Part shown: positions 11,684-16,113 of the stretch, piece by piece
How positions within the stretch are numbered: the first letter of the stretch is position 1
Layout: each line of letters begins with the position of its first letter
IMG/VR virus record: IMGVR_UViG_3300044613_000737
Span: 1 to 22,450 of that record
Direction: 5' to 3' (one strand)
Length of the DNA: 22,450 bases
DNA from: a virus
Notes under the pieces: model-generated
Seen by the model: the letters and a program-made list of their open reading frames with translations, nothing else
The model's database searches: none
What the model was told of the DNA's origin: nothing
Program-made: the position numbers and the translations under genes

Positions 11684-11706
11684 TGGGGGGCATCGGCATC
11701 CCCCCA
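11684..11706 (+). terminator. GC-rich hairpin, probable terminator with unusual flank
   Basis: A perfect 7-bp stem, TGGGGGG (11684-11690) / CCCCCCA (11700-11706), loop CATCGGCAT, five bases after the stop codon. No T run follows on the + strand, but an A-rich run precedes it, so a canonical U tract would exist only for transcription from the - strand. It may stop or stabilise the 3' end of the upstream message, or act in both directions. Confidence 0.5.
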
Positions 11707-11743: not shown

Positions 11744-11773
11744 TTGCAAAGATAGTTCTTTTTTGTATATTTG
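11744..11773 (+). promoter_or_regulatory. Bacteroidota sigma-A promoter
   Basis: A -33 TTG (11744-11746, second half of TTGTTG), 19-base spacer, -7 TATATTTG (11766-11773). It drives the structured leader at ~11779-11874 and the replication operon behind it. Confidence 0.85.
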
Positions 11774-11778
11774 TACCG

Positions 11779-11874
11779 CATTACAGTTATGTCGCAGATA
11801 ACTTGGAAAAATCTTTACAACCCCATTCAGTTTTTGGCACTGCGACCGCCATTAATTGTGTGGGGTTTTATTTT
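11779..11874 (+). ncRNA. Structured leader RNA with complementary hairpin loops (candidate regulator/attenuator)
   Basis: About 95 bases separate the expected transcription start from ATG 11875. Hairpin 1: AGTTAT (11785-11790) / ATAACT (11798-11803), loop GTCGCAG. Outer stem: AACCCCA (11819-11825) / TGGGGTT (11861-11867), followed by TTATTTT as in a terminator. An inner stem TGGC (11835-11838) / GCCA (11848-11851) exposes CTGCGAC (11840-11846), the exact reverse complement of loop 1. A 7-bp kissing interaction is therefore possible. An ATG at 11789 opens a 39-codon frame across this region (to 11908), so a small peptide is an alternative explanation. No known riboswitch class is recognised. 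Confidence 0.4.
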
Positions 11875-12099
11875 ATGCAAAACACATACACAACACAAAC
11901 AACAGTAAACAAAAACATTTGCACGATTGCAGTTTACATGAACCACACATGGTGGCACGATTACGAATTTCACACGGATGATTTGTACTTGATTAAAGGT
12001 CGAAACATTCTAATTGAAATTTCGTCTAAAAATTGGGGAACTCCTGAAAACATCCAAGAAATCCACAACTCTATTTTGAAACACCTTTTATCCAAATGA
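11875..12099 (+). CDS. Small protein, function unknown
   Basis: A 74-residue product from ATG 11875. A longer frame from TTG 11803 would run through the structured leader and is less likely. The sequence has a short beta-rich part (KNICTIAVYMNHTWWHDYEF) and a helical C-terminus (NIQEIHNSILKHLLSK), without TM. It is the first gene behind the leader RNA and precedes the replication initiator by one base. No domain recognised. Confidence 0.65.
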   Translation: MQNTYTTQTTVNKNICTIAVYMNHTWWHDYEFHTDDLYLIKGRNILIEISSKNWGTPENIQEIHNSILKHLLSK

Positions 12100-12100
12100 G

Positions 12101-12757
12101 ATGGCAACGGATAAAAAATCGTTTTTGCTCTATTGTGATTTAATACACACAGTTGACCAATTGACCAACGAACAAGCGGGTGACTTATTCAAACATATTT
12201 TGAAATATGTGAACGACCACGATCCGCAAACGGACAATGTAATTACACGCATTGCATTTGAACCAATCAAACAAGCATTGAAGCGTGATTTGTTGAAATA
12301 CGAATCAATCAGGCAGCGTAATTCCGAGAACGCACGCAAGCGATGGGATGCGACCGCATACGACCGCATACCAAATGATACCAAAAATGCCGATAATGAT
12401 AATGATAATGATAGTGATAATGATATAAAAGATAATAAAGGTGATTTGGTTAATTCAAAAAAAGAAATTAAGGAACAACAAGCCCCCCGCCCCGCGATGA
12501 AACCAGAATACGCAAATACATTTGATTTGTGGTTTCAATACAAACAAGAAAAAAGACAAGGGTACAAAAAGACGGGGATGGAACAATTTGTTAAGACAAT
12601 GGAATCACGATACACCGCAGAACAATTTGCAAAGTGTGTGGAGTATTCAATCACCCAAAATTATCAAGGTGTTTTTGAACCAAAAGATTTGAATAAAGCC
12701 GAACCCGTACCAACAAAACCAATAAAATACTTTAATATCGAAGATTATGACAAATGA
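12101..12757 (+). CDS. Replication initiator/helicase-loader-like protein (DUF6291-like N-terminus)
   Basis: A 218-residue protein directly upstream of DnaB. Residues ~6-75 (FLLYCDLIHTVDQLTNEQAG, then HILKYVND and AFEPIKQALKRDL) match the DUF6291 pattern found in replication proteins of Bacteroidota phages. Residues ~88-130 are an Asp/Asn/Lys-rich linker encoded by a GATAAT repeat. Residues ~135-200 form a helical DnaD-like C-terminus. Such proteins bind the origin and load the helicase. The last 11 bases overlap dnaB. The role follows from family resemblance and gene order. Confidence 0.75.
   Translation: MATDKKSFLLYCDLIHTVDQLTNEQAGDLFKHILKYVNDHDPQTDNVITRIAFEPIKQALKRDLLKYESIRQRNSENARKRWDATAYDRIPNDTKNADNDNDNDSDNDIKDNKGDLVNSKKEIKEQQAPRPAMKPEYANTFDLWFQYKQEKRQGYKKTGMEQFVKTMESRYTAEQFAKCVEYSITQNYQGVFEPKDLNKAEPVPTKPIKYFNIEDYDK
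12392..12436 (+). repeat. GATAAT hexamer array inside the initiator gene, possible origin element
   Basis: GATAAT occurs at 12392, 12398 and 12404, then GATAGT at 12410, GATAAT at 12416, GATATA at 12422 and GATAAT at 12431. The array is AT-rich and encodes the Asp-Asn linker of the protein. Some phages (lambda O being the best known) carry iterons within the linker of the initiator gene, so this could be an iteron or DNA-unwinding region. It might equally be plain microsatellite expansion in a disordered linker. Confidence 0.5.
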
Positions 12758-14000
12758 CATTGAGGAATATGTGTTAGGACAATTGTTGTTCTACCCACAG
12801 ACACGGGCGTTATTACCCCGTATGAAGGCGGATTGGTTTGAAACTTTATTGTATCGCAAAGCCATACGCAACATGATTACCAATTACCATGCAAATGAAC
12901 CCGTGGATTACATAACCACCACGGAAGGCATGACGGGAAAGGAACGGGTACAAATCATTGAAATTGGGCAGAATGTTCACGATGTGGCCAATGTAAGCCA
13001 GTACATCCCCAAGTTGGAACAAAAGTATTTGCACAAACAATTCATTGAACGATTGGGTAAGTTGGATTTAACCAAGGGTTTGAAGGAATTAATGGATGAC
13101 ACACAAACCATCATTGAATCAACGAGGTTTACAACCATTAACGACCCTGAATCCATCCACAAGATAAGTGCAAGGGCATTAGACAACATTACGGATGCAA
13201 TTGCAAGGGGTGAGCGGATCACGGGCAAAGCAACGGGGTGGGCTTCATTGGATAGAATTTTGGGAGGTTGGAACGCGGGTGATTTGATTGTGATGGCTGC
13301 ACGACCTGGAATGGGTAAAACGGCCTTGGCGTTATCACTGATTTACGAATTCTCAAAGTTGGGTGGGAAAAGTTTGATTATCAGTTTGGAAATGAGTTCC
13401 GAACAATTGGTAAAAAGATACTTTTCACTGATTACGGACATCATGAATTACAAGATTCGCAACGCATCATTGAACCAATATGAAGTGGAAAAACTTTGCC
13501 ATGCGGTCAATAATAGCGATGTGGAATTTTATGTGGACCAAGAACCAAACGCATCCATCCAACAATTGAAATCCAAAGCCAAAGTACACAAAGCCAAACA
13601 CGGGTTGGAACTTTTGGTCATTGATTACATCCAGTTGATGACGGGTTCAAAACAAAACCGTGAACAAGAAATTGCAGAAATATCACGCGGTTTGAAATTG
13701 TTGGCAAAGGAATTGAACATCACGATTATTGTTTTGGCGCAGTTATCCCGTAAACCCGAAGAACGCACGGACAAACGCCCATTGTTATCAGACATTCGGG
13801 AAAGCGGATCAATTGAACAAGATGCAGATGTGGTGATGTTTCCATTCCGCCCCGCAAAATACGAAGATGTACAACCCGAAATTGAGGATGCGGAATTGAT
13901 TATTTCAAAGAATAGGCATGGTGAGTGTGCCACCATCCAAACCACATACATTGGAAATCGGACACTTTACAAAGAAAATTTGATACCTAAACAATTTTAA
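12747..14000 (+). CDS. dnaB: Replicative DNA helicase DnaB
   Basis: A 417-residue RecA-fold helicase that unwinds DNA 5' to 3' at the phage fork as a hexamer. The N-terminal helical domain (~1-105) is followed by the ATPase domain. Walker A is ARPGMGKT (185-192), the catalytic Glu region is SLEMSSEQ (213-220), Walker B is LLVIDYIQLM (289-298), motif H4 is LLSDIRESGSIEQDADVV (346-363), and the KNRHGE arginine-finger motif is at 388-393. All are intact. The start overlaps the initiator gene by 11 bases, which fits a loader-helicase pair. It is slightly shorter than the ~450-470 residues of cellular DnaB. Confidence 0.97.
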   Translation: MTNDIEEYVLGQLLFYPQTRALLPRMKADWFETLLYRKAIRNMITNYHANEPVDYITTTEGMTGKERVQIIEIGQNVHDVANVSQYIPKLEQKYLHKQFIERLGKLDLTKGLKELMDDTQTIIESTRFTTINDPESIHKISARALDNITDAIARGERITGKATGWASLDRILGGWNAGDLIVMAARPGMGKTALALSLIYEFSKLGGKSLIISLEMSSEQLVKRYFSLITDIMNYKIRNASLNQYEVEKLCHAVNNSDVEFYVDQEPNASIQQLKSKAKVHKAKHGLELLVIDYIQLMTGSKQNREQEIAEISRGLKLLAKELNITIIVLAQLSRKPEERTDKRPLLSDIRESGSIEQDADVVMFPFRPAKYEDVQPEIEDAELIISKNRHGECATIQTTYIGNRTLYKENLIPKQF

Positions 14001-15168: not shown

Positions 15169-15518
15169 AACATCTTGAAAGCCGTTTACAAGTCAACTGC
15201 GTTAAGTGGTTTCGGTTGGCATACCGCAAGTGGGCAAACCATTTGATTCATGTTCCCAACGGAGGATCACGCGATTTGCGAACGGCTCAAAGATTAAAAG
15301 CCGAAGGAGTATTGCCAGGGGTGGCCGACCTTGTGTTGTTCATCCCCAACAAAACACACCACGCGTTATTCATCGAACTTAAAATCAAACCAAACAAGCA
15401 AAGCACACACCAAAAAGAGTGGGAAAAGTTAGTCACTGCAATGAATTACGCCTATGTGGTTGTATATTCGTTTGACGATTTCAAATTACAAATAGAAGCA
15501 TACATTGGTAACACTTGA
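15165..15518 (+). CDS. VRR-NUC family nuclease
   Basis: A 117-residue single-domain protein of the PD-(D/E)XK superfamily. Visible motifs are E5 near the start, HVPNGGSRD (29-37), LKAEGVLPGVADLVLF with D55, IELKIK with E71 and K73, and Q83 in STHQKEWEKL. These are the VRR-NUC signature. Stand-alone VRR-NUC proteins are structure-selective or Holliday-junction-type nucleases in phages and probably act in replication-recombination or in clearing branches before packaging. It is coupled upstream by ATGA and overlaps the sigma-like gene by 14 bases. Confidence 0.93.
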   Translation: MKHLESRLQVNCVKWFRLAYRKWANHLIHVPNGGSRDLRTAQRLKAEGVLPGVADLVLFIPNKTHHALFIELKIKPNKQSTHQKEWEKLVTAMNYAYVVVYSFDDFKLQIEAYIGNT

Positions 15519-16113
15519 AGCCATAGCGAAACGGCACAACGAATGGTTGAAAATTGCCAAATACCTTGGGGCAACGGGTGATGAATCGGACGACATGGTA
15601 CAATCAATGTATCTCAAACTTGCAGAAATACAATTGGCGGAAGGAAATTTCACACGGCTAACAAACCACCACGGAACAATAAACACCATTTATCTTTTCA
15701 AAATGCTTCACAATGCGTTTATGGACATCAAACGAAGCCAAAAGAACACAATACCCCACCAAGACCATTTTGTTCCCGTAGAAAGCCCCGAAATGGCTGA
15801 AATGGCACATTCTGATTTAATGGGCGAGGTGAAGAACGCAATTGATGAACTCCGTGACTATGACCAAATGTTATTGGAACTCCATTTTGTGTATGGGCAT
15901 AGCATGAGGGAGATAGAAAAACGCACGGGGATTCCCACACATTCGGTGTTTAACTCCATCAAGAACGCCAAACAATTTATCAAACAAAGGACACAAAACA
16001 AATACAAGATATATGCAGAAGAAAAAAGACACACGGAAACAGTTTACCGAATCACGACCATCCATCGGACTGGGGGATACGATTCAGAAGGTAACGAAGG
16101 CCACGGGGATTGA
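15505..16113 (+). CDS. Phage sigma factor-like protein (sigma-70 family, TTG start)
   Basis: A 202-residue protein with the two-domain plan of small sigma factors. Residues ~10-80 resemble region 2 (DESDDMVQSMYLKLAE, then LFKMLHNAFMDIKR), and residues ~110-165 resemble region 4 with an HTH (DYDQMLLELHFVYGHSMREI, GIPTHSVFNSIKNAK). The only start giving a complete region 2 is TTG 15505; upstream the frame is closed at 15493-15495. It probably directs host RNA polymerase to phage promoters, perhaps the GTTTTATAG sites. Its C-terminal 34 codons overlap the next gene. Confidence 0.8.
   Translation: MVTLEAIAKRHNEWLKIAKYLGATGDESDDMVQSMYLKLAEIQLAEGNFTRLTNHHGTINTIYLFKMLHNAFMDIKRSQKNTIPHQDHFVPVESPEMAEMAHSDLMGEVKNAIDELRDYDQMLLELHFVYGHSMREIEKRTGIPTHSVFNSIKNAKQFIKQRTQNKYKIYAEEKRHTETVYRITTIHRTGGYDSEGNEGHGD

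Follow-up and report, generated by a model that had tools for sequence, protein, structure and literature searches.

A structurally conserved kissing-loop leader RNA ahead of replication operons in Bacteroidota phages

Does the stretch in front of a phage replication operon encode a regulatory RNA and, if so, how might that RNA act? The window analysed here, a whole IMG/VR virus record, is a phage contig of 22,450 bases carrying genes for a terminase, a portal-like protein, DnaB, an amidase, a ParB-like protein and a DNA methylase. A Bacteroidota-type promoter (TATATTTG) precedes the stretch in question (11778–11874), which is followed by an ATG at 11875. The promoter (11744–11773, plus strand) comprises a TTG-like element and a -7 box at 11766–11773 that agrees with the Bacteroidota consensus TAnnTTTG (PMC7366714) and is not of the sigma-70 type; transcription would start near 11778. 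A both-strand sigma-70 scan returned no minus-strand match at the leader. Downstream, on the plus strand, follow a first gene of 74–75 residues without a Pfam or PHROG match (11875–12099), a gene for a DUF6291 replication-initiator/primosomal-like protein (12101–12757; Pfam PF19808, 6.6e-24; PHROG primosomal and O-like matches) and the DnaB-type replicative helicase gene (12747–14000; Pfam DnaB_C, 5.4e-85). The view of the first-pass annotation that the stretch is the RNA leader of a replication operon is supported. The slot between leader and DUF6291 is highly variable among close relatives (the window, L001, L002, L004, L005, L013 and L016), being occupied by a 75-residue ORF, a 176-residue ORF or an HNH-like gene, or left empty; DUF6291 starts directly after the leader in L004 and L005.

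The leader folds into two plus-strand hairpins. The promoter-proximal hairpin P1 (11785–11803), present in the MFE fold, pairs AGTTAT (11785–11790) with ATAACT (11798–11803) around the seven-base loop L1, GTCGCAG (11791–11797). An A/U-rich linker (11804–11818), U-rich just before P2 and reading about AAGAYATTTRCC in the alignments of relatives, connects it to a long terminator-like hairpin with internal loops, P2/P3 (11819–11867), whose outer strands AACCCCAT and GTGGGGTT occupy 11819–11826 and 11860–11867. At the tip, TGGC (11835–11838) and GCCA (11848–11851) close the loop ACTGCGACC (11839–11847), within which L2, CTGCGAC (11840–11846), is the exact complement of L1. A U-run, TTTTATTTT (11866–11874), directly follows the stem and reaches the ATG. 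The hairpins and complementary loops that had been described from the sequence are thus all in place. The unconstrained MFE fold of the leader has an energy of -27.2 kcal/mol (z = -3.07), matched by none of 200 shuffles, and the two loops that it leaves open are exactly L1 and L2.

A search with the DUF6291 protein as query yielded 80 related loci from viral contigs, to which 32 loci from bacterial assemblies and further viral contigs were added later. Upstream of the homologues the layout is conserved while the letters differ. A promoter-proximal hairpin with a seven-base loop is joined by an A/U-rich linker to a long hairpin; the tip of the long hairpin is exactly complementary to the first loop, and a U-run, found in every parsed leader, comes last. 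Nearly all leaders are preceded by a TAnnTTTG-type box, at a near-constant spacing from the first loop (median 16 nt in 76 distinct leaders collected with a descriptor that itself demands the box). More than 30 different loop pairs occur; the combined list holds 35 loop sequences, with at least one match (L111) that looks spurious. Besides GTCGCAG/CTGCGAC of the window they include GTTGCGG/CCGCAAC (L001), GTAGGAG/CTCCTAC (L014, L071), GTAGCAG/CTGCTAC (L027), GTAAGAG/CTCTTAC (L119), GTGCGAG/CTCGCAC (L034), TCGCAGC/GCTGCGA (L016), AGAGAGA/TCTCTCT (L115), GTACGAG/CTCGTAC (L114), CGGGCAGG/CCTGCCCG (L045 and Flavobacterium phage 11b) and GAGTCTCA/TGAGACTC (L145). A DNA similarity search of the leader region against named phages gave no match. 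The element is conserved in structure, not in sequence.

Three sub-types share this topology. Type A, which includes the window, has a nearly continuous P2 helix and often a further, outer stem at the predicted 5′ end; this stem covaries in relatives and is missing from the window clade. Type B leaders carry an AGTA/GAA internal loop, letters that we take to be the bulged-G (sarcin-ricin) motif, and type C leaders a TGAA/GGAT internal loop, presumably compatible with tandem G-A pairs. The A/U-rich linker recurs in partly conserved form, and no unpaired core is common to all types. One phage (L067) contains two kissing-loop leaders that have separate promoters and different loop pairs (ATTGCAG/CTGCAAT and CCTTCAC/GTGAAGG), one at 158–260 before a helicase gene and the other just upstream of 3001, before DUF6291. 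Two loci (L078, L079) combine the loop pair TGAACCC/GGGTTCA with an extra hairpin inside the second arm and possibly represent a further variant.

Covariation was assessed first on a sequence-based alignment of 12 leaders (A1), in which 22 of the 30 pairs of the structure, kissing helix included, show two-sided changes and the covariation exceeds that of all 500 shuffles. A covariance model (R1) built without the kissing helix recovered more leaders and gave a 36-row alignment with two-sided changes in 29/32 pairs, a level reached by none of 500 shuffles; the covariation score is 0.70, against 0.10–0.13 for slid partners. All five aligned pairs of P1 change on both sides (96.5% of cells paired), as do 14 of the 16 of P2/P3, the basal C-G pairs of which are near-invariant. 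The kissing helix, although absent from the aligning model, shows two-sided changes at six of the seven L1–L2 pairs and is 90.5% paired. The first-pass annotation had proposed to judge the loop–loop pairing by compensatory changes in the two 7-mers of homologous leaders, and these are what the alignment contains. At least six contiguous loop pairs can form in all 36 leaders, in 34 of them by Watson-Crick pairing alone (six or seven pairs), with L018 and L021 needing one G-U pair for a run of six; the run amounts to seven Watson-Crick pairs in nearly all leaders and is never longer. Exchanging loops among leaders lowers the mean run to 3.4, with only 5.8% reaching six. As cells count sequences rather than independent events, the count of distinct loop pairs carries more weight. 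On this comparative evidence a conserved RNA structure with a loop–loop helix is nearly certain.

The same data bear on whether the complementarity could be due to chance or to coding constraint from a 39-codon frame. In the window and in leaders nearly identical to it no stop interrupts that frame, but many homologues have a stop directly after its ATG (ATGTAG, ATGTAA), so the frame is not the explanation; the first-pass annotation had itself named conservation in the codon pattern of this frame as a ground for refutation. Also speaking against chance are the compensatory changes seen in more than 30 loop pairs and a blind test of IMG/VR with a pattern that described only the second arm of one sub-type (GAGTAGTNCTGCNNNNACGAAA). 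A matching loop was present in an upstream hairpin for 38 of 43 matches, compared with 0/172 for swapped loops; three of the misses lie at contig ends and two in GC-rich unrelated contigs. With the A1 and 36-leader covariation and the blind test all against it, this explanation was rejected as extremely improbable. The blind-test matches were not selected by protein, and they still precede replication genes, whose products are a DnaD-like helicase loader (phrog_2514) or a DUF6291 protein. Further matches have a first gene from a family without Pfam recognition; one such gene appears ParB-like by eye without a database match.

A strict descriptor combining the TAnnTTTG box, a hairpin loop, a complementary hairpin loop and a GC stem plus U-run matches the window once, at the leader, and gave 3 matches in 3.2 Mb of Markov-shuffled phage DNA, with 0–1 in wrong-box controls. 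It missed leaders in three isolates, all of which are found by a relaxed version that produced 6 chance matches in 5 Markov repeats: Olleya phage Harreka_1 (30070), Flavobacterium phage 11b (33621) and Flavobacterium phage elemoA (20761, minus strand). A leader in Cellulophaga phage phi19:3, with a three-pair P1, was recognised by eye only, and none was found by the relaxed descriptor in Bacteroides phage B40-8 or Riemerella phage RAP44. Neither a strictly filtered covariance-model search of 297 Bacteroidota genomes nor a pattern search for one sub-type in 396 gave a match; given the strict filters and the single sub-type, these searches indicate rarity outside phages and not absence. Four bacterial assemblies picked by DUF6291 carry the leader, in each case on what is probably a viral contig (L094, L099, L101, L106). 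The downstream replication genes come from unrelated families, either DUF6291 and DnaB or a DnaD-like helicase loader. The presence of the leader at operons with unrelated initiators, including those of sequenced isolates, suggests that it marks a common control point.

The first-pass annotation could not match the leader to a riboswitch class, and the searches agree. Rfam 15 returned no match at the gathering threshold for the window and 15 homologous loci, relaxed searches gave sub-threshold matches only (for example TEG147, 23.3 of 56.1 bits), and in the literature on Bacteroidota phage leader RNAs we found nothing relevant and no paper describing the leader. Like terminator-type riboswitches and attenuators, it is a structured leader that closes with a GC hairpin and a U-run ahead of the first gene, and loop–loop contacts do occur in purine and lysine riboswitches. 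In the phage leader, however, the tip of the terminator hairpin is itself the kissing partner, no antiterminator stem covaries and no invariant ligand pocket was recognised. ANTAR-controlled leaders such as eut also have two successive hairpins, the second tied to a terminator, but ANTAR sites carry conserved hexaloops, whereas the phage loops are of 7–9 bases, mutually complementary and freely variable; the leader thus lacks the two hexaloop hairpins with conserved loop letters that define that class. Seven-base loop–loop kissing beside replication control is familiar from ColE1 RNAI/RNAII and other plasmid copy-number RNAs, from which the leader differs in having both loops on one RNA strand.

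How might the RNA act? Between promoter and first gene lies a GC-rich hairpin followed immediately by a U-run, the form of an intrinsic terminator, and all parsed leaders have the GC-rich stem base and the immediate U-run. The ATG comes 7 to >20 bases after the U-run begins. The distance from stem to U-run is therefore fixed and that from stem to ATG variable, as befits a terminator and not a ribosome dock. The region upstream of the leader ATG is U-rich, with T at a frequency of 0.90 at -3, compared with A at 0.53 at -3 in 637 other reading frames of the phage loci. Bacteroidota genes are normally A-rich upstream (PMC7366714), the reverse of the leaders. A simple terminator scan did not call P2, owing to its nine-base tip loop and interrupted stem. 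The terminator-like form of the hairpin makes attenuation the reading with the best support, and we give about even credence to the proposal that the leader is a cis-acting RNA of about 95 bases that attenuates transcription of the phage replication operon. RNA polymerase would make P1 first and P2/P3 just before the first gene, and L1 could capture the emerging L2 before the downstream strand of P2 exists. A phage or host protein, translation or another copy of the RNA might hold or release this capture, the fate of which would set the share of transcripts in which the P2 hairpin forms early enough for termination at the U-run and, through the frequency of termination there, the amount of replication protein.

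The first-pass annotation had envisaged competition between the kissing pair and a stem CAGT/ACTG. This stem is present in the window but broken in the nearest variant, L003 (CCGT), in which a matching change within the long hairpin restores its pairing (CAGTT/AATTG to CCGTT/AATGG), supporting the terminator-like stem and not the competitor. A search for an alternative antiterminator helix among 25 non-redundant leaders found none that covaries, so that competition with other stems fares no better, and a kissing- or factor-dependent mechanism is likelier than a classical two-stem switch. We would suggest only tentatively, and with some doubt, that the leaders form a phage-specific class of RNA, widespread among Bacteroidota phages, in which the first hairpin of a transcript clamps the tip of that transcript's intrinsic terminator, a kinetic, RNA-only kissing-loop antiterminator or self-sensing replication brake that would work by geometry with no alternative stem and might be tuned in trans by leader copies.

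Attenuation has to be weighed against control of translation, in which the P2 stem and L2 would govern access to the start codon and L2 would pair with L1 or with a further L1 copy located there. Such a copy, the third L1 copy, is placed beyond the U-run, at the start codon, in two unrelated lineages (GTTGCAG in AAAATGTTGCAGATG, TCGCAGC in ATTCGCAGCAAAAATG), so that L2 could pair with either copy; it was found in 21 of 76 distinct leaders, against 0.6% in a swapped control. Most lineages, including the window, have no third copy, and the distance from stem to ATG varies widely. Translation control is thus favoured in the two lineages with the copy and, for the leader at large, appears unlikely. 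The first of these lineages comprises L148, L176, L178, L180–L182, L190 and L193–L216, the second L016, L022, L025 and L030, and the copy is conserved across different first genes.

A promoter and a terminator-like hairpin also delimit a unit, and relatives show covariation in the outer stem at the predicted 5′ end, as might be expected if transcription mostly stopped at the U-run to release a stable RNA of ~95 bases, sealed at both ends and acting in trans. Both loops are consumed internally, however, a coding gene follows at once as for a leader, and the two copies in L067 differ in their loop sequences; we regard such a small RNA as improbable.

A comparably low probability attaches to an RNA of the put type, a folded leader that would bind its RNA polymerase so that pauses and terminators downstream in the replication operon are ignored. 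HK022 putL, an antitermination RNA from a lambdoid phage, lies directly behind an early promoter and has two stem-loops and a triplex in a compact tertiary fold of about 70–95 bases (PMC9378689). The window leader likewise has two stem-loops directly behind its promoter, at the very start of a transcript whose early class is inferred from the replication genes, and, as in put, the compact structure would be made by RNA alone, with no conserved protein partner seen adjacent. The putRNA description names its stem-loops and triplex and neither kissing loops nor a pseudoknot (PMC9378689); put RNA also lacks a terminal start codon and belongs to a different host phylum, and the leader of the window has, as its second arm, a terminator-like hairpin that reaches the start codon.

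Taken together, the sequence comparisons point to a hitherto undescribed candidate RNA that may switch phage replication genes or act as a brake on them, in a setting, RNA-level control in Bacteroidota phages, of which very little is known. If loop–loop kissing does control termination, this would be attenuation without an alternative stem. The two loops, separately breakable and restorable, offer a ready experimental handle, and in contigs of uncultured phages the leader provides a strong signal by which early promoters and replication operons can be annotated.

Two further features of the window were noted. A small protein with sigma-70 region 4 (15511–16110; 3.1e-06) has a weak, below-cut-off match to phage antitermination protein Q (0.00088) and is possibly a phage transcription factor. 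A strong hairpin, GGGGGG-CATCGGCAT-CCCCCC (11684–11706), lies directly upstream of the promoter, and likewise upstream of the leader in L003, L004 and L005; as an A-run precedes it and no U-run follows, it resembles a minus-strand terminator, and the recognisable genes around it are all on the plus strand.
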